Origin: Longimicrobiaceae bacterium
GTDB taxonomy: Bacteria > Gemmatimonadota > Gemmatimonadetes > Longimicrobiales > Longimicrobiaceae
Direction of reading: 5' to 3'
Length of the DNA stretch: 39,685 bases
NCBI GenBank assembly: GCA_035696245.1
Contig: DASRQW010000029.1
Coordinates: forward strand, 1-39,685
In this document: positions 7,768-37,613 of the stretch, piece by piece
Position numbering within the stretch: the first letter of the stretch is position 1
How the letters are laid out: every line of letters begins with the position of its first letter
The notes under the pieces: model-generated
What the model saw: only the letters and a program-made list of their open reading frames with translations
What the model was told of the DNA's origin: nothing
The model's database searches: none
Position numbers and translations under genes: made by a program

Positions 7768-10700
7768 TCATCTTCCTGAACCAGGCCGAGCGAAGTTGAT
7801 ATCTTGGGTCGCCCAGTTGACCGCCGTTGCAATCTGCTCTGCATTCCAGAGCAGAGGAAGGCGCTCATCGAGGGTAACCGCCCCTCCGTTCATCCGACTC
7901 TCAATTAAATTACCAAACGGCACCCCTCTCCACGCCGCTACTTCCCAGCAGCGTTGTGCTTCCCGCCGTACGTCTGGATTTTCGATTTCGTAGGCCAATA
8001 CCAGGAATAATCCATACAATTCCTCTCCACTCAAGTCACTACGGATGGGATGCGGCGACCTCCATTTCATCCCTCCTGCCCATGTGAGAATAACACCAAA
8101 ATGAGTAATCCCCCACAGACTATATTCACTGATGACTTGCTCCATTATTCGAAGGATACCGCGCATCACACCATCAAGGTAGCCGCTTCCGTGGACGGAG
8201 GATAACGCCCACAACGCAGCCAGTGCAGTGAGAGAAACCCTCCCGCTCCCGTAAGCCCTGTAATGTCGCTGTCTGCTAAAAGATCGTCCCCCTTGCCACC
8301 GGTTCATCTGCTCTGGCGTAATCTGACCACGGAGGCATGCATCATAAGCAGTGTTGAAATCACTCTGGCTAAGACGGACGATTTGTTGTTCATAGGTATT
8401 TGCTACCTGCTCAGAAAAATTCACAAAATGCTCTGCCGGACCAGAACTCGGGATGCCACTCTGAAGGTGCGGCCGCAATACCATTCCCATCGGTAAACCA
8501 ACTTCGAAACTAGCGATTATCATCTGATCATCATCAAGGGTGTTCGCTTCGAGTATCGCCTCTTTTAGACCAGCCGAGACTCCAGGCCGATTCTCGGGTG
8601 CAACCCAGATGAGACCCATGAGGATGTCCAAAATGAGTTTATTTTCCGATTCAACCTCACTATTCGCATTCGGCGTCAAGAACTCCGAGTTGGTAGCGAG
8701 TTGTGTGATTACGCGCTCCGCGGAGTACTTCGCAATGGCCCGTGTAGTGGGAGGGCTTGGTACCAAAAATTCCAAGCACCGAGCAGCGAAAGAAAGTAGG
8801 GACCAAGACTCTACGTCGGAATCTTTCTGGGTCTCAGCAAGCACTCTTGCCAGCAACCGATCCCCACCACCCTCGGCTTCGCTATTCTTGATTTGGAAAG
8901 CTAATTGAGAAACCATGTCCCACTCTCGCCGCGCTAGCTTGGGCAGCAATACTTCGGCTAAAGCATCAGCCGTCTCGTGAGTACGGTTCAAATACAGAGC
9001 CGCAAAGTATTCAAGAAATGTCCGGTGCGTAAATTGATACAGCTCAACTCCTTGTCCATTGCTCCCAGTATTGGTGAAGACCCATGCTCTTCCTCGACAG
9101 TACTCAACAAAATCGCGTGCATATGCTTCAGCCTCATCGCGATCCTCAAATCGCTTTGGGGCTAAGTAATCAACGGCCTTTAGAATCAGTTGATCCTCAG
9201 TGACTCCCGTTTGCAAAGTCTCGTTCGAGTAAATCCAATACGCCAAGTAGGCTAGGGGGGGCCTGAAGTCGGATTCGAATCGGAAACGGACCGGAATTTC
9301 ACGCTTCCGATCCCACTTATCGAACATCATTTCTGCGCATTTTCGATAAACGTCGGGACGATTGATCGGAATGTAATTCTCTGCTCGGTAAATAGTACAC
9401 ATCAAACCCAACATCAAGGGATTTGACCGCAGATCAGGGACCGAAGCACTCTCCGTCCAAAACGCCGTTATTTTTCTTCTCGCGTGCTCTGGGCGGGCTT
9501 CCTCCTCAAGCATAAACCATTTACTGACATATTCTTGCGCCTGAGCTTCGGTGAACGGCGCCAATTTGAATATTTCGAACGCACCCGGATCAAGGGGAGC
9601 TTGCTCGTATCCTACTTCCCTTGACGTCACAATGACCGGAGTAGCTGGGTACAGGTGACAGAACGACTCCACTTGAGCACTTACCTTCTGTCGCTGATTC
9701 GTCTCCAAAAGTTCATCGAGTCCATCGAAAATGACGATGGCGCGGCCATTAAGAAGCAGGTATTCAAACGCACCTGAGGGAGGATCTGTCTGGTAGGAGG
9801 AGCGTGCGTTCTCACTAATATATTGCAATATAGATAACTGGCGATTCGTCTTCTCAGCGACATACTCCCTGAGGACCACGAGGATCGGTGTTGGCGCCCG
9901 CTCCCCACAGGAAGTTGCGTCCGGAGCTTTCGATAAATTGAAGCACAGTTTAGTGGCGAGCGTGGACTTTCCTCCTCCGGGATTTCCCAGGATCACGGTC
10001 CGATGCATACGCCCCAGCATCTCCGGGATCCCGAGCGCCTCTACGACTCGCCCTTCCGGCTCTGTGGGTTCAACGAAACTAGGACTGACATAGAGGTCGT
10101 CCAATTTCACCTTTTGAGCCCCGCTGAGGTGGGGTGGGACAATAACACCATGGCGCGCATTCATCACATTACGAAATTTATCTTCGAACTGCAGAACTCC
10201 CTCCAAACTGGTTCGGGTCTCTCGACGGAGGGCAGTAATACTCTTACTAATCGCGCGTATCTCGTCGCGAAGGATATTTGTCCGCACCGCGTTCAGAGCA
10301 TCAACTGCCGCGAGGGAGCCTAATTCGACTTCAACTTTCAGTGCATACCGCACACCTTCAAGGATGGCGGTGAAAAGCTCGCCTGATGGTATCTTCTTAC
10401 GCTCCTCATCCAAGTGGAAATGTAGTTGTACAAGAAGGTCAAAACGAGTTCTCAGGTCGGCCATGTAGGCTTCCTCACTCATCCACTCTACGGCGAACAT
10501 CTGCCGAACAACTGACTCAACCTCCGGTGAAGATAGAAAGTCAACAATTTCTCTCGGCTGTCCGATGCTATCGAACTTCCTGGAGCGCGCGATTTGGGTA
10601 CACGCGGTCTGAAGTGACTGTGATGCCGTTCTATCCGGATTCTGTTCAAGTTTTTGTCTCGCGCGTACGACAGCCTGTTCGACACCAGGGTTTGTCTGAG

Positions 10701-10788
10701 CGTGAAGGGATTTCGCGACCCTGCCAATGACAGTGGTCAGCCCATTTGCGACTAGGCCTGTTGATATTGAAACAGTAATTGGATCCAT
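7768..10788 (-). CDS. NACHT-domain STAND NTPase, probable antiphage defence protein
   Basis: A 1006-residue protein built as a STAND/NLR-like ATPase. An N-terminal helical region (1-250) has no recognisable nuclease, TIR or protease motif. The NACHT module follows: Walker A GNPGGGKST (268-276), Walker B with the extra acidic residue FDGLDEL (354-360), sensor VIVTSR (385-390), the RSNPLMLGLM helix (about 454-463), and a winged-helix signature FTHRTFLEYFAA (586-597). The remaining 400 residues are helical without clear LRR or TPR repeats and would be the sensor. Bacterial NACHT proteins are known antiphage NLR relatives. The gene is much AT-richer than both neighbours with different codon use, which points to transfer. 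ATG start with AGGTG 8 nt upstream. No partner gene is adjacent. Confidence 0.9.
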   Translation of the reverse strand: MDPITVSISTGLVANGLTTVIGRVAKSLHAQTNPGVEQAVVRARQKLEQNPDRTASQSLQTACTQIARSRKFDSIGQPREIVDFLSSPEVESVVRQMFAVEWMSEEAYMADLRTRFDLLVQLHFHLDEERKKIPSGELFTAILEGVRYALKVEVELGSLAAVDALNAVRTNILRDEIRAISKSITALRRETRTSLEGVLQFEDKFRNVMNARHGVIVPPHLSGAQKVKLDDLYVSPSFVEPTEPEGRVVEALGIPEMLGRMHRTVILGNPGGGKSTLATKLCFNLSKAPDATSCGERAPTPILVVLREYVAEKTNRQLSILQYISENARSSYQTDPPSGAFEYLLLNGRAIVIFDGLDELLETNQRQKVSAQVESFCHLYPATPVIVTSREVGYEQAPLDPGAFEIFKLAPFTEAQAQEYVSKWFMLEEEARPEHARRKITAFWTESASVPDLRSNPLMLGLMCTIYRAENYIPINRPDVYRKCAEMMFDKWDRKREIPVRFRFESDFRPPLAYLAYWIYSNETLQTGVTEDQLILKAVDYLAPKRFEDRDEAEAYARDFVEYCRGRAWVFTNTGSNGQGVELYQFTHRTFLEYFAALYLNRTHETADALAEVLLPKLARREWDMVSQLAFQIKNSEAEGGGDRLLARVLAETQKDSDVESWSLLSFAARCLEFLVPSPPTTRAIAKYSAERVITQLATNSEFLTPNANSEVESENKLILDILMGLIWVAPENRPGVSAGLKEAILEANTLDDDQMIIASFEVGLPMGMVLRPHLQSGIPSSGPAEHFVNFSEQVANTYEQQIVRLSQSDFNTAYDACLRGQITPEQMNRWQGGRSFSRQRHYRAYGSGRVSLTALAALWALSSVHGSGYLDGVMRGILRIMEQVISEYSLWGITHFGVILTWAGGMKWRSPHPIRSDLSGEELYGLFLVLAYEIENPDVRREAQRCWEVAAWRGVPFGNLIESRMNGGAVTLDERLPLLWNAEQIATAVNWATQDINFARPGSGR

Positions 10789-16224: not shown

Positions 16225-17517
16225 TCACCCTCCAGCCCCAGCGTCCTCGCGCTCCGCGGCGGCGAGAAGCTGGCCGGCGATGACGAGCTTCTGCACCTCG
16301 GTGGTGCCTTCGTAGATGCGGAGCGCGCGGATCTCGCGGTACAGCTTCTCCACCGTGGCGCCGGAGACCACGCCGCGCCCGCCGAAGAGCTGCACGGCGG
16401 CGTCGATCACCTGCTGGGCGCTCTCGGTGGCGTGGAGCTTGGCCATGGCGGCCTCGCGGGTCACGCGCTCGGCGCCGGTGTCGCGCGTCCACGCGGCACG
16501 GTACACGAGCAACGCGCTGGTGTCCACCGCGAGCGCCATCTCGGCCAGCTTCGCCTGCGTGAGCTGGAAGTCGCTGAGCGGCTTGCCGAACGCCTGCCGC
16601 GTCCGCGTCCACCCGACCGCCTCATCGAGCGCCCGGCGCGCGAAGCCGAGAGCAGCCGCGCCGACGGTGGAGCGGAAGACGTCCAGCGTCCCCAGCGCGA
16701 CCTTCATCCCCGCGCCCTCGGCTCCGACCAGCGCGTCACGGTCTACGCGGCATCCGTCGAACCGCAGCGTGGCGAGGGGATGCGGGGCGATGACGTTTAT
16801 GCGATGCGTGACGGCCAGGCCGGGGTTGTCCGCGCCGACCACGAAGGCCGCGAACCCGCGCTCGCCTGCCTCGGGGAAGCGGCAGAAGACGACGTAGTGG
16901 TCCGCGATGCCGCCGTTGGAGATCCACGTCTTCTCGCCGTCGATCACGTAGCCGCCGTCCACCCGCCGCGCCGTGGTCCGCATCGCGGCGACGTCGCTGC
17001 CCGCGTCCGCCTCGGACAGCGCGAAGGCGGCGATGGCGTCGCCGCGCGCGACGGGCGGGAGGTAGCGCCGCTTCGCATCTTCCGACCCGAACAGCGAGAT
17101 GGGGCCCGTGCCGAGGCCCTGCATGGCGAAGGCGAAGTCCGCCAGCCCGTCCGCGTACGCCAGCGTCTCGCGCGCGAGGCAGAGGGAGCGCACCTCCAGC
17201 CGCTCGGTCGCGCCGCCGTACGCCGCGGGAACGGTGTAGCGCAGCCAGCCGGCATCGCCCAGGCGGCGGACGAGGGAGCGGCAGTGGGTGTCGACGGAGG
17301 CGGTGGAGGCCCCCTCCCCCAGCCCCTCCCCCAAAACTGCCTGGGGGAGGGGAGTCTGGTCCACGGCGGGGGAAGATTCCGGGCGTCGAGCGGGCGGGGC
17401 GGCTTCGGCAGACGGGTGGCCGGGGAGCTCGGCGGCGGTCCAGGCGGAGAGGCGGGCGGAGAGGGCGCGGTGGGCGTCGTCGAAGAAGGGCCAGGACAGG
17501 TAGGTGCGGTCTGGCAC
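16225..17517 (-). CDS. Acyl-CoA dehydrogenase carrying an in-frame palindromic repeat
   Basis: A 430-residue FAD-dependent acyl-CoA dehydrogenase that introduces a 2,3-double bond into acyl-CoA and passes electrons to ETF. Motifs include [18 protein letters not shown] (flavin/substrate signature), GEKTWISNG, the [12 protein letters not shown] helix, QLFGGRGV and the catalytic base Glu403 in IYEGTTE. The oddity is the N-terminal domain: about residues 40-75 form a Pro/Gly-rich insertion between the first helix and [11 protein letters not shown]. Of these, residues 55-70 ([16 protein letters not shown]) are encoded by a copy of the 45-nt dispersed palindrome. The GTG start is 2 nt after the crotonase stop. 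Confidence 0.93.
17310..17354. repeat. Dispersed G/C palindromic repeat, copy 3, inside a coding sequence
   Basis: These 45 nt are identical, in inverted orientation, to 37358-37402. The core CCCCTCCCCCA/TGGGGGAGGGG folds around AAACTGCC. It is read in frame by the acyl-CoA dehydrogenase gene on the minus strand without a stop codon. Confidence 0.9.
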
Positions 17518-17519
17518 GA

Positions 17520-18353
17520 TCAGGTGCCCTGGAAGACGGGCTTCTCCCTGGCCGCGAACGCGCGGAAGGCGCGGGCGAAGTCCTCGGTCTGCATGCAGAT
17601 GGCCTGCGCCTGCGCTTCGGCCTCGATCGCCTCGTCCACGCCCATCGACCACTCCTGGTGCAGGCAGCGCTTGGTGATACCGTGCGCGAACGTGGGGCCC
17701 GCGGCCAGCTCGGCGGCGAGGGAGAGCGCGTCGTCCAGCACCGCGTCCGGCTCGCAGATGCGGTTGAAGAAGCCCCAGCGCTCGGCCTCGTCGCCCATCA
17801 TCGTCCGCCCCGTGTACAGCAGCTCGCTCGCGCGACCCTGGCCGATGATGCGCGGCAGGATGGCGCACGCGCCCATGTCCGCGCCGGACAGGCCGACCTT
17901 GGTGAAGAGGAAGGCGACCTTGCTGCGGGCGGTGCCCAGCCGCAGGTCGCTCGACATCGCCACGATGGCGCCCGCGCCCACGCACACACCGTCGATGGCG
18001 GCCACGATGGGCTGGGGGCAGCCGCGCATGGCCTTCACTAGGTCGCCGGTCATGCGGGTGAAGGCGAGCAGGTCGTCCATCCGCCCCTCGTCCTTCATCT
18101 TCACGAGCGGACCGATGATGTCGTGTACGTCGCCGCCCGAGCAGAAGTTGCCGCCCGCCCCGGTCACGACCACGACCTTCACGTCCGTGGCGAACGAGAG
18201 CTGGCGGAAGTGGTCGCGCAGCTCGCCGTAGCTCTCGAAGGTGAGCGGGTTCTTGCGCTCCGGCCGGTCCAGCGTGACCACGCCCACCTTGCCGCTCACC
18301 CGCCAGCCGAAGTGCACGGGGCTCAGATCGGCGGCGGCGATGCGTGTGGTCAT
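17520..18353 (-). CDS. Enoyl-CoA hydratase/isomerase (crotonase family)
   Basis: A 277-residue crotonase-fold enzyme that hydrates or isomerises an enoyl-CoA. The oxyanion-hole motif [12 protein letters not shown] and the second loop [20 protein letters not shown] are clear. The positions usually occupied by the catalytic Glu pair read [11 protein letters not shown], so Asp may replace one Glu, as in ring-opening or hydrolase members of the family. The family-typical length and the ATG at 18353 give a conventional N-terminus. Two nt separate it from the acyl-CoA dehydrogenase gene. In aminobenzoyl-CoA clusters such enzymes act on the non-aromatic CoA intermediates. Confidence 0.92.
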
Positions 18354-33202: not shown

Positions 33203-33244
33203 ATGAATAGATTACGGCTCCTCCATCTACATTTGCCGCCTTAA
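33203..33244 (+). CDS. Possible 13-codon mini-ORF before the peptide cluster
   Basis: It has an AGGAGG ribosome site 5 nt before the ATG, encodes MNRLRLLHLHLPP and stops 13 nt before the first RiPP-like gene. The strong site makes translation plausible, as a leader peptide or a by-product. TTGTTG at 33182 followed by AT-rich sequence could instead mean this is the promoter of the peptide genes. Confidence 0.35.
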   Translation: MNRLRLLHLHLPP

Positions 33245-33257
33245 AAGGAGCAGCCCG

Positions 33258-33440
33258 ATGCGCCAGTATCGCCTGGATACGAACGAGCTGGAGGTCACGT
33301 CGTTCGACGTGTCGTACATCGCCATCTCGCAGGCGATCACGGTCATCGTCTCGGACCCGAACACGTGGGAGGACACGTGCATCAACATGTGCCCGACCGA
33401 CGACACCTGCACCAAGCTGGGCTGCACGCGGACCGCGTGA
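33258..33440 (+). CDS. RiPP-precursor-like peptide 1
   Basis: A 60-residue peptide. ATG preceded by AGGAG 7 nt upstream. The N-terminus RLDTNELEVTSFD matches the leader pattern KLxLNxxDLxVTSF of the two peptides that follow, of the kind I recall for pinensin-like lanthipeptide leaders. The C-terminal 20 residues contain DTCINMCPTDDTCTKLGC, with four Cys and several Thr, suited to lanthionine or disulfide formation. The middle is a hydrophobic stretch (ISQAITVIVS). No GG cleavage site. No modification enzyme is in the window. It could also be a leader-tagged peptide of unknown maturation. Confidence 0.75.
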   Translation: MRQYRLDTNELEVTSFDVSYIAISQAITVIVSDPNTWEDTCINMCPTDDTCTKLGCTRTA

Positions 33441-33491
33441 CCTGACGCCGTCGAGTCCCTTTCTCCCTTGCCCGCCAACCCGGAGCGCGCC

Positions 33492-33689
33492 ATGAGCAAG
33501 CTGAGCCTGAACGTCGCGGACCTGGCCATCACCTCGTTCGAGCCCGCAACGACCGCGTCCGCGGTCGCGGGTGGAACGATCCAGTCTGGCGGGGAGGACA
33601 CGCTGGACCAGGTGTGCTTCTGCATGACGTGGGTGAAGGAGGACTGCTTCGGCCCCACGGCCGGCTGCTCCACGTCCGACGCGGCGTAG
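33492..33689 (+). CDS. RiPP-precursor-like peptide 2
   Basis: A 65-residue peptide starting at ATG after GGAG (6 nt). Leader MSKLSLNVADLAITSFEP, then an Ala/Thr/Gly-rich spacer with AVAGG (possible double-Gly cleavage), then the Cys-rich end VCFCMTWVKEDCFGPTAGCST. Four Cys are spaced C-x-C-x7-C-x6-C. The end is nearly identical to that of peptide 3, and the 15 nt upstream of the start are also shared, so the two are recent duplicates. It would need a synthetase acting in trans. Confidence 0.78.
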   Translation: MSKLSLNVADLAITSFEPATTASAVAGGTIQSGGEDTLDQVCFCMTWVKEDCFGPTAGCSTSDAA

Positions 33690-33707
33690 GCGCCGGGAAC
33701 GCCGCGC

Positions 33708-33740
33708 GCCCGCCGCGCATCCCGAAGAGGCGCGGCGGGC
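33708..33740 (+). terminator. Intercistronic hairpin between peptide genes 2 and 3
   Basis: An 11-bp stem GCCCGCCGCGC/GCGCGGCGGGC has an 11-nt loop and no T-tract. It may stabilise the peptide 2 transcript or partly terminate it. Confidence 0.45.
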
Positions 33741-33817
33741 ACGATGCCGGGCTGCACGATACCGCGTGATCCGCCGCTGCCACTCCATCCCCTCACCCGC
33801 CGACCCGGAGCGCCGCC

Positions 33818-34042
33818 ATGAGCAAGCTGAAGCTGAACACCGCAGACCTCGCCGTCACCTCGTTCCAGCCCGCGCCGGGCACCGCGCAGGCCGCCGCCGC
33901 CGGGTCGATCGATTCTATTGCCGTCGCGCTCACCCCCATCCTCTACGCCGACACGGTCGACCAGATCTGCTTCTGCATGACCTGGGTCGCCGAGGACTGC
34001 TTCGGCCCCACCGCCGGCTGCTCCACGGACAACACGGCGTAG
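33818..34042 (+). CDS. RiPP-precursor-like peptide 3
   Basis: A 74-residue peptide, ATG with GGAG 7 nt upstream. Leader MSKLKLNTADLAVTSFQP, then a longer spacer (AAAAGSIDSIAVALTPILYAD) and the Cys-rich end ICFCMTWVAEDCFGPTAGCST with the same four-Cys spacing as peptide 2. The conserved end and variable spacer suggest the end is the functional core. It is the last member before a strong terminator, so the three peptide genes form one unit with no visible enzyme, transporter or immunity gene. Confidence 0.78.
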   Translation: MSKLKLNTADLAVTSFQPAPGTAQAAAAGSIDSIAVALTPILYADTVDQICFCMTWVAEDCFGPTAGCSTDNTA

Positions 34043-34119
34043 GCATTTCCCGGAGGCACGCACCACCGCCCCGCATCGGCAGAGACGCGGCGGCGAAGCG
34101 CGAGGCACATGCGAGACGA

Positions 34120-34156
34120 GACGAGGGGCCGGCGGCGCGCCGGCCCCTCGTCGTTC
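34120..34156 (+). terminator. Terminator of the peptide cluster
   Basis: A perfect 14-bp stem (34120-34133 with 34139-34152, GAGGGGCCGGC core) with a 5-nt loop is followed by GTTCTTG. It lies about 80 nt after peptide 3 and separates the cluster from the polymerase gene. Confidence 0.75.
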
Positions 34157-34332: not shown

Positions 34333-37158
34333 GTGGAAAAGCCCGAGAAGACCCGCCCCCGGCTGTACCTGATCGACGGCTACGCGCTGATCTACCGCGC
34401 CTTCTTCGCGCTCATCTCGCGGCCGCTCATCTCCTCGCGCGGCGAGAACACGTCTGCCGCGTGGGGCGTCACGCGCTTCCTGCTCAAGGTGATCGAGCAG
34501 CACGAGCCGGACTACCTGGGCGTGGTGTTCGACGCGGGCAGCAGCGACCGGCACATCATCTACCCCGAGTACAAGGCCACGCGCGAGAAGATGCCGACCG
34601 AGCTGGAGGCGTCCATCCCCCGCGTCCGCCAGATCATCGAGGCGTTCCGCATCCCCGTCCTGGAGCTGGCGGGCTACGAGGCCGACGACGTGATCGGCAC
34701 GCTGGCGGCCAAGGCGGTAGATGCGGGGCTGGAGACGGTGATCGTGAGCGGCGACAAGGACTTCTACCAGCTGATCCGCGACGGCGTGTGCCTGCTCAAC
34801 CCAGGCCGCGGCGGGCCGACGGCGGTGGAAGAGGAGTGGGTGGACACGCGCAACGCGCACGAGCGCCTGGGCGTGCAGCCCAACCACGTGGTGGACTACC
34901 TGGGCCTCATCGGCGACACCAGCGACAACGTGCCGGGCGTGAAGGGCATCGGCCCGAAGACGGCGATCCAGCTCATCGAGCAGTTCGGCGCCATCGAGGA
35001 GATCCTGGCGCGCACCGGCGAGATCAAGGGCAAGCGCGCCAAGGAGTCGCTGGAGGAGAACCGCGAGCTGGCGCTGCTCTCCAAGCGGCTGGTGACCATC
35101 CACACGGACCTGCCCGTCGAGCTGGACCTGATGGCGCTGGAGCGCGAGGAGCCGGACCGCGCCCGGCTCAAGGAGATCCTGCTGGAGCTGGAGTTCCACT
35201 CGCTGGTCCGCGACCACGCCGCGCCCACCGAGAAGGAGCCTTCCGCAGCCCGCGCCACCGACTACCGCCTGCTCCAGACGGTGGATGAGGTGCGCGAGAT
35301 GGTGGAGCGCGTGCGCCGCGCCGGCCGCATGTCGGTAGACACGGAGACCACGAGCGTCGATGCCATGCGCGCCGACCTGGTGGGCATCTCGGTCGCGCTG
35401 GAGAACGGGGCCGCGTACTACCTGCCCTTCGCGCACCGCCGCAAGGTCGAGGAGCCGCCGCAGGGCGAGCTGCTGGACGCGGACGCAGGCGAGGGCAGCA
35501 CGCCGCAGGGCGCCGAGGCCGACTGGGAGGCGGCCGAGGGCGAGATCGTGAACCTGCCCGAGCTGCTGTCCCGCGAGATGGAGCCGCTGGTCGCGCTGCT
35601 GGAGGACGAGTCGGTGGTGAAGATCGGGCAGAACCTCAAGTACGACTTCCTGGTCTTCCGGCGCGCGGGCGTGAACCTGCGCGGCATCGGGTTCGACACC
35701 ATGGTCGCCAGCTACCTGCTGGAGCCGGGCCGCCGCGAGCACGGGCTGGACTCGCTGGCGCTCCAGCACCTGGACCACCGCACCATCGCCTACGAGGACG
35801 TGGCCGGGAAGGGCAAGACGCAGATCCCGTTCGCGCACGTGGGGCTGGAGGCGGCGCGAGACTACGCCTGCGAGGACTCGGACATCGCGTGGTGCCTGGC
35901 GGAGCGGTTCGCGCCCGAGCTGGAGCGGCTGCGGCTGGTGGAGCTTTTCCGCACCGTCGAGATGCCGCTGGTGGAGGTGCTGGCCGAGATGGAGTGGAAC
36001 GGCATCCGCATCGACGAGCAGTTCTTCTACGAGATGGGCCGCCAGCTCCGCGGGCAGCTGGGCGTGGTCGAGGGGCAGATCTACGACGCGGCGGGCGGCG
36101 AGTTCAACATCGGGTCCAACCCGCAGCTGCGCGAGGTGCTGTTCACGCGCATGGGCCTGCCGGTGATCAAGCGCACCAAGACGGGCGCGTCCACCGACGT
36201 GGAGGTGCTCCAGGCGCTCGCCGCGCAGGGACACCATCTCCCGGAATTGCTGATGCAGTACCGGCAGATCGACAAGCTGCTGGGCACGTACGTGGACACG
36301 CTGCCCAAGACGGTGAACCCGGAGACGGGCCGCATCCACACGTCGTTCAACCAGACGGTGGCGGCCACCGGGCGCCTGGCGAGCAGCGACCCGAACCTCC
36401 AGAACATCCCCATCCGCACGGAGATGGGGGCCGAGATCCGGCGCGGCTTCATCCCCCGCGAGGGCTACCGCTTCGTCTCGGCAGACTATTCGCAGATCGA
36501 GCTCCGCATCCTCGCGCACTACTCCAAGGACCCGGCGTTCGTGGAAGCCTTCCGGGCGGGCGAGGACATCCACCGGCAGACGGCGGCGCTCATCTTCGGC
36601 GTCGCCGCGGCAGACGTGACGCGCGAGATGCGCGACCGGGCCAAGACGGTCAACTTCGCCATCATCTACGGCATCGGCGCGTTCTCGCTGGCGAACAAGC
36701 TGGGGATGCCGGTGAGCGAGGGGAAGGAGTTCATCGACGCCTACTTCGTACGCTTTCCCGGCGTGCGCGCGTACCTGGACGAGCAGATCGAGCTGGCGCG
36801 GAAGCAGGGCTACGTGGAGACGCTGACCGGGCGCCGCCGCTACATCCCCGAGATCACATCACGCAACTTCAACGTGCGCTCGTTCGGCGAGCGGGCGGCC
36901 ACCAACGCGCCCATCCAGGGCTCGTCTGCCGACCTGATCAAGATCGCCATGATCCAGATCCAGCACGATCTGGCCGCCAGCGGCAGCCGCTCCCGCATGC
37001 TCCTCCAGGTGCACGACGAACTCCTCTTCGAAACCCCCATCGGCGAGGAGGAGCAGACGCTGGAGATGGTGCGCTCGCGCATGGAATCCGCCGCCCAGCT
37101 CGAAGTCCCCCTCCGCGTGGAGACCGGCATCGGCGAGAACTGGCTGGAGTGCAAGTGA
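34333..37158 (+). CDS. polA: DNA polymerase I
   Basis: A 941-residue three-domain polymerase for Okazaki-fragment maturation and repair. Residues 1-290 form the 5'-3' nuclease (LYLIDGYALIYRAFFAL, KATREKMP, GYEADDVIGTLA, SGDKDFYQL). Residues 310-520 form the 3'-5' proofreading domain, which keeps all its acidic motifs: Asp336/Glu338 (DTET), Asp438 (NLKYDF) and Tyr511/Asp515 (YACED), so proofreading should be active. The polymerase motifs are A at Asp718 (DYSQIELR), B at Arg769-Lys771 (RAKTVNFAIIYG) and C at His894-Asp895 (QVHDE). GTG start with AGGA upstream. Confidence 0.98.
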   Translation: MEKPEKTRPRLYLIDGYALIYRAFFALISRPLISSRGENTSAAWGVTRFLLKVIEQHEPDYLGVVFDAGSSDRHIIYPEYKATREKMPTELEASIPRVRQIIEAFRIPVLELAGYEADDVIGTLAAKAVDAGLETVIVSGDKDFYQLIRDGVCLLNPGRGGPTAVEEEWVDTRNAHERLGVQPNHVVDYLGLIGDTSDNVPGVKGIGPKTAIQLIEQFGAIEEILARTGEIKGKRAKESLEENRELALLSKRLVTIHTDLPVELDLMALEREEPDRARLKEILLELEFHSLVRDHAAPTEKEPSAARATDYRLLQTVDEVREMVERVRRAGRMSVDTETTSVDAMRADLVGISVALENGAAYYLPFAHRRKVEEPPQGELLDADAGEGSTPQGAEADWEAAEGEIVNLPELLSREMEPLVALLEDESVVKIGQNLKYDFLVFRRAGVNLRGIGFDTMVASYLLEPGRREHGLDSLALQHLDHRTIAYEDVAGKGKTQIPFAHVGLEAARDYACEDSDIAWCLAERFAPELERLRLVELFRTVEMPLVEVLAEMEWNGIRIDEQFFYEMGRQLRGQLGVVEGQIYDAAGGEFNIGSNPQLREVLFTRMGLPVIKRTKTGASTDVEVLQALAAQGHHLPELLMQYRQIDKLLGTYVDTLPKTVNPETGRIHTSFNQTVAATGRLASSDPNLQNIPIRTEMGAEIRRGFIPREGYRFVSADYSQIELRILAHYSKDPAFVEAFRAGEDIHRQTAALIFGVAAADVTREMRDRAKTVNFAIIYGIGAFSLANKLGMPVSEGKEFIDAYFVRFPGVRAYLDEQIELARKQGYVETLTGRRRYIPEITSRNFNVRSFGERAATNAPIQGSSADLIKIAMIQIQHDLAASGSRSRMLLQVHDELLFETPIGEEEQTLEMVRSRMESAAQLEVPLRVETGIGENWLECK

Positions 37159-37613
37159 CCGCGTAACCCGAAGCTTCGGCCGCCGCGGTGAACCGTAGCC
37201 GGGGCCTGAAAGTTCGAGCCACGACGCGGGTTGGAAGTAATCCGTGAGACAACGTTCCAGCCGCACCGGTTGTCCTACCCGGAAGGGTGAACGACGAGGT
37301 CCCGCGTCCTGGTAGATGCCATGCCGCGCCCCGAATCCAAGCACCACCTGGAACAAGCTCCCCTCCCCCAGGCAGTTTTGGGGGAGGGGCTGGGGGAGGG
37401 GGCCCTCCGCGCATCATCCCCGCCCCAGCCGTGTAGAACCCGCTTCGGACGACGGACATCGCACCCCGATCCTTCCACACGGCGGCAGGTTCCGGCAGGC
37501 GATTTGCTCCCGCCCCCGGTAGCAGATGCGGCGGCCGGCAGGCGCGCCGTTCTTTCGCCGGTGCGCGGAGCGCGCTATCATAGACGCTCACATCCATCTG
37601 GCAGGAGGTCTTC
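37159..37613. other. Gene-free interval between polA and the kinase operon
   Basis: About 450 nt. It contains copy 5 of the G/C palindrome and a small CCGAAGCTTCGG palindrome just after polA. TATCAT at 37576, with a poor TTCTTT about 20 nt before it, is the best promoter candidate for the downstream leader ORF and kinase. No gene is recognisable. Confidence 0.45.
37358..37402. repeat. Dispersed G/C palindromic repeat, copy 5
   Basis: These 45 nt are the exact reverse complement of copy 3 at 17310-17354, which is coding. Here it is intergenic. The flanks of the two copies do not match except for a loose TTCCA/TCCA patch next to one end. Confidence 0.9.

Follow-up and report, generated by a model that had tools for sequence, protein, structure and literature searches.

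Three neighbouring small genes in the window, by which we mean the whole 39,685-nt stretch of Longimicrobiaceae DNA analysed here, are real genes. Their products are probably class I (LanB-type) lanthipeptide precursors that would be modified in trans. With less confidence, we also lean towards a broader interpretation in which the family runs a genome-wide class I system, one two-protein LanB and a LanC serving dispersed precursors that number from tens to over 150. Within this system a two-peptide pair with a fixed core and a drifting leader would have a dedicated, conserved function rather than form part of a chemical library. The locus contains the following features.

33258..33440, + strand: gene 1, an ORF with an AGGAG ribosome site directly 5', encoding a 60-aa precursor with core TWEDTCINMCPTDDTCTKLGCT.
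33492..33689, + strand: gene 2, an ORF encoding a 65-aa precursor with leader MSKLSLNVADLAITSF and core DTLDQVCFCMTWVKEDCFGPTAGCS, recognized by the leader HMM and with homologues in G127 and G131.
33705..33743, + strand: GC-rich hairpin between genes 2 and 3, an inverted repeat with 17 nt arms that are 88% complementary.
33818..34042, + strand: gene 3, an ORF encoding a 74-aa precursor with leader MSKLKLNTADLAVTSF and core DTVDQICFCMTWVAEDCFGPTAGCS, recognized by the leader HMM and by its repeats with gene 2.
34120..34152, + strand: perfect 15-bp hairpin 3' of gene 3, an inverted repeat without a clear T tract.
34333..37158, + strand: polA (DNA polymerase I) by ORF translation, a downstream neighbour outside the system that is also found 3' of the pair in G127.

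Genes 2 and 3, at 71% identity, align over a common core, CFCMTWVxEDCFGPTAGC (C-x-C-x7-C-x6-C), in agreement with an earlier note on this DNA that had described a near-identical Cys-rich end in two of the peptides. Their leader, core and upstream GGAG stretch are duplicated as direct repeats of 24, 60 and 95 nt with 85-88% identity, as the note had recognized for the 5' sequences, and gene 3 is a paralogue of gene 2 in which the spacer is longer. The core of gene 1 differs from that of genes 2 and 3 and is equally conserved; the pattern is that of a conserved gene 1-gene 2 pair with an additional copy of gene 2. The common leader proposed for all three, KLxLNxxDLxVTSF, can be retained only in part, as the fit of gene 1 (QYRLDTNELEVTSF) is loose and V is replaced by I in gene 2. 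A joint terminator had also been suggested, but the hairpin at 34120-34152 has no clear T tract and a second hairpin, at 33705-33743, separates genes 2 and 3. A promoter and terminator scan of the region found no sigma-70 promoter and no T-tract terminator, and left the 34120-34152 hairpin uncalled; this hairpin is a possible terminator and that at 33705-33743 a possible attenuator or terminator. Codon statistics led us to reject a 312-aa antisense ORF lying across the genes: its GC3 is 0.77, against 0.94-0.95 in the three gene frames.

The link between these genes and LanB enzymes comes from the leader. A leader HMM was built from only 15 leaders located near LanB genes in the own and related genomes, with the trio left out; the 15 were chosen by leader pattern and the HMM is therefore not blind to leader shape. 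When it was run over the 2103 ORF starts of the window, genes 3, 2 and 1 were the top three (21.9, 18.5 and 8.5 bits) and the best other start reached 6.0 bits, while none of 1000 composition shuffles per gene attained the score of that gene. Homology to the leaders of LanB-linked precursors is weak for gene 1 taken alone (8.5 bits), and its G127 orthologue scores 14.7 bits. With these scores above all other starts and homologues in two genera, the description of three small Cys-rich genes of one leader type is confirmed. The trio forms a divergent branch of the leader set of its genome: two of its members rank 63 and 69 of 75, gene 1 does not fall below E 0.05, and the GTVxGQ motif usual in the set is missing. 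None of the three peptides matched any model in Pfam or NCBIfam, including the pinensin leader model NF038180. Among other LanB-linked precursors, two (L096:6825-7397 and L102:11003-11242) have repeated CSxC / CTxC units, possibly forming many small rings.

No enzyme, transporter or protease was identified in the neighbourhood of the trio, and a search of its contig (C29) for LanB or LanC domains found none, in keeping with the earlier observation that a local modification enzyme is missing. Class I precursors usually, though not by strict requirement, adjoin their enzymes; since contig C29 carries no LanB or LanC domain, the trio would be modified in trans. The label of 'orphan cluster' used in the earlier note is nevertheless misleading, as the trio stands among about 75 leader-bearing genes of its own genome (G000). 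At E values up to 0.01 there are 75 leaders on 45 contigs, and only four of the 75 lie on LanB contigs. This assembly is in 561 pieces, but the dispersal is not mere fragmentation because three LanB loci cannot adjoin 45 contigs.

The profile searches of leader and core proposed in the note gave no match, and the search for enzymes in the rest of the genome revealed both LanB and LanC, so that the absence of any modifying enzyme, which would have spoken against the proposal, does not apply. The genome encodes three LanB loci (C234, C393 and C273), four LanC domains, a LanM (C15) and a class V-like HopA1/LanC set (C431). By Pfam, the C234 cassette consists of Lant_dehydr_N (LanB_N), Lant_dehydr_C (LanB_C) and LANC_like (LanC), with leader-bearing Cys-rich precursors inside it. 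Both zinc motifs, WCHG and CHG, are retained in its LanC, whose nearest matches are cyclase domains of the LanM type. Among solved structures, LanB_N has low similarity to 6ec7, a protein with a lantibiotic dehydratase domain that we take to be TbtB, the tRNA-Glu-dependent glutamylating enzyme in the synthesis of thiopeptides. For LanB_C the resemblance is to TsrE (7cww), a thiopeptide protein, and to the C-terminal portion of a lantibiotic dehydratase (5ehk). Since the cassette also has a LanC, thioethers are favoured over a thiopeptide. As for the other loci, the C273 region (L056:5575-20000) has a shorter LanB, two Lant_dehydr_C proteins and a pinensin-like precursor, with an apparent NRPS condensation domain nearby; C15 (L058:4237-7479) encodes a 1080 aa LanM-type synthetase with DUF4135 and a LanC domain; and C431 (L057:10624-12949) places a HopA1-family protein beside LanC, as class V lanthipeptide clusters do.

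The distribution of leaders in the family follows that of LanB. In 21 family genomes searched with a 14-sequence version of the leader HMM, the leader was present in all 10 that carry Lant_dehydr_N and absent from all 11 that lack it, with no exception (p = 2.8e-6, a value that ignores relatedness and so overstates the certainty). The zero count in the 11 LanB-free genomes also indicates that false leader matches are rare. The match holds within genus g8 (seven with, three without) and genus g4 (one with, one without). Leader numbers range from one to at least 150 per genome, the counts for G131, G132 and G135, at or near 150, being lower bounds. Genomes with C234-type enzymes (53-67% identity) carry from 11 to at least 150 leaders; in G124 and G134, whose only version of the enzyme is more distant, five and one leaders were counted. 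The full LanB_N, LanB_C and LanC cassette is found in most leader-rich genomes, in G131 across two contigs, while in G136 only LanB_N is seen before the contig ends; all three genomes that bear the pair have the C234-type cassette.

Another possibility is that the trio are RiPP precursors served by a different enzyme, namely the LanM (C15), the HopA1/LanC set (C431) or the other LanB types (C393, C273). All of these are encoded in the own genome, and LanM is also present in all three pair-bearing genomes. However, HopA1 is confined within the family to G000, G133 and G135, and a genome with at least 150 leaders (G132) lacks LanM while one without leaders (G130) has it. Neither distribution tracks the leader, although such tests cover the whole leader family and not the trio alone, and we consider this explanation unlikely. 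That class I modification would take place in trans is well supported by the genomics: leader homology, LanB co-occurrence and dispersal, together with homologues in two genera, all favour the proposal in the earlier note of RiPP precursors with a conserved core family modified in trans.

The gene 1-gene 2 pair is conserved beyond this genome. Homologues with the same core, the absence of which would have counted against the note's proposal, were found in two other Longimicrobiaceae genera (G127:C78 and G131:C56), and the order of the two genes is the same in three of three genera. In G127 the pair sits between a divergent S9-family peptidase and polA, the same locus being recorded as JAQBQD010000188.1 from a Gemmatimonadetes MAG; a scan of genome contigs for homologues returned one locus, the same as G127. 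The G131 pair adjoins an S9 peptidase that by sequence is apparently the same one. This peptidase (L035:4843-7392; L051:1623-4218) is transcribed divergently from the pair in two genera and is not beside the copy in the window; it is possibly a leader protease, or its position may be mere synteny. Beyond the known carriers, a phylum-wide search with the core yielded short, marginal hits and nothing more, and a plasmid search with one core sequence gave no match.

The core of gene 3 is 88% identical (22/25) to that of G127 gene 2 and the core of gene 1 is 86% identical (19/22) to that of its orthologue, while about half of the first 16 residues of the leaders differ between genomes, from which it follows that the product end is more constrained than the leader. 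Nucleotide changes in the core are mostly at codon position 3. These findings bear on whether the trio could be decayed or chance ORFs, remnants of duplicated leaders, as might be supposed from the weak leader score of gene 1 and a neighbourhood in which no function was identified. With cores near-identical in other genera, mostly third-position changes and the pair and its order kept in three genera, we regard this as very improbable. It is also conceivable that the trio are unmodified metal-binding Cys peptides or disulfide miniproteins, their N-terminal similarity being an old inherited segment. Each core has four Cys, and the core is more conserved than the leader, unlike most dispersed RiPP precursors. 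On the other hand, the leader is homologous to those of LanB-linked precursors and co-occurs strictly with LanB, the number of Cys varies (the second core Cys of G131 gene 2 is Ala, in a core that is extended), the core profile matched no solved structure and no signal peptide was seen by eye in the trio peptides. We hold such an identity to be decidedly unlikely.

For modification by the C234 enzymes in trans, we propose that the leader, KL-x-L-x3-DL-x-V-x-SF, would be bound by the two-protein LanB encoded on contig C234, away from the trio locus. LanB_N would then glutamylate and LanB_C eliminate, after which the LanC of the same cassette would join dehydrated Thr to Cys. The C-terminal cores of the trio contain conserved Ser/Thr and Cys; Thr and Cys are kept between genomes, with one T/S exchange at a predicted dehydration site, and this invariance suggests three tandem thioether rings per core. 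In genes 2 and 3 these would be T46-C51, T55-C61 and T65-C68 (gene 3 numbering), and in gene 1 T36-C41, T/S47-C51 and T52-C56. As genes 1 and 2 are adjacent in three genera and their cores are almost fixed, the products of the pair probably act together on a fixed partner. We infer the enzyme-substrate contact, the ring pattern and the paired action, as well as the export and function of the trio.

Large in-trans lanthipeptide repertoires are known chiefly from class II systems of marine cyanobacteria. The closest analogue is that of the prochlorosins and synechococsins (ProcA, SyncA; ProcM/SyncM), in which up to 83 scattered precursors per genome are served by LanM (PMC10783134). The likeness lies in many shared-leader precursors scattered away from one or few synthetases, as with the dispersed leaders described above. 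However, the prochlorosins have a class II LanM, a Nif11-type leader and variable cores, whereas in the present system the enzymes are a split LanB of class I and a LanC, the leader is short (KLxLxxxxLxVxSF), gave no match in Pfam or NCBIfam and is not followed by LanM, and the core of the pair is conserved. The scale is equal or larger, with 75 precursors in the own genome and at least 150 in two relatives. A conserved two-peptide core is unusual for a prochlorosin-type strategy.

A split LanB is known for pinensin and for SapT, the latter resembling our system in its two-protein LanB (PMC9011353, PMC7268733), and pinensin relatives have a LanC of LanM-like type (PMC7268733). The own genome likewise combines a split LanB with a LanM-like LanC, and leaders of related type are present. 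The pinensin-like character put forward in the earlier note therefore fits the system and its LanB-linked leader type, but the trio itself has another core, does not adjoin its enzymes and has no match to NF038180 (cut-off 24 bits). Seven of 22 own-genome peptides match this model at E up to 0.1, below the cut-off, and one G138 peptide passes; it is one of two tandem precursors (L052:7255-8193, G138:C9) that start almost identically but end differently. SapT is reportedly clustered with its enzymes and its core is unlike that of the trio. The two-component lantibiotics roseocin and rodencin also keep two different precursors together, as does the pair in G000, G127 and G131, although their enzymes are local to the clusters, unlike those of the trio. 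The consulted passages of the Longimicrobium terrae genome announcement mention lanthipeptide clusters and no such repertoire (PMC7291104). A search confined to a set of open-access papers returned no account of such an in-trans class I repertoire.

The more interesting facts are the size of the repertoire and the conserved core of the pair. If true, a class I counterpart of the cyanobacterial systems that matches or exceeds them in precursors per genome would offer a source of new cyclic peptides and a test bed for the tolerance of LanB for so many substrates, while the conserved pair would give a handle on what such peptides do. Most of these genes would escape enzyme-centred cluster finders.

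Two further observations concern the window. Positions 7768-10788 encode a 1006-aa protein with the P-loop GNPGGGKS that resembles a NACHT/STAND NTPase and is possibly a defence protein. In addition, a translated 14-residue stretch recurs inside the ORF at 16225-17985 (-) and near 37330-37400 (+); the former copy lies within an acyl-CoA dehydrogenase-like frame, and this dispersed repeat seems to enter coding sequence.
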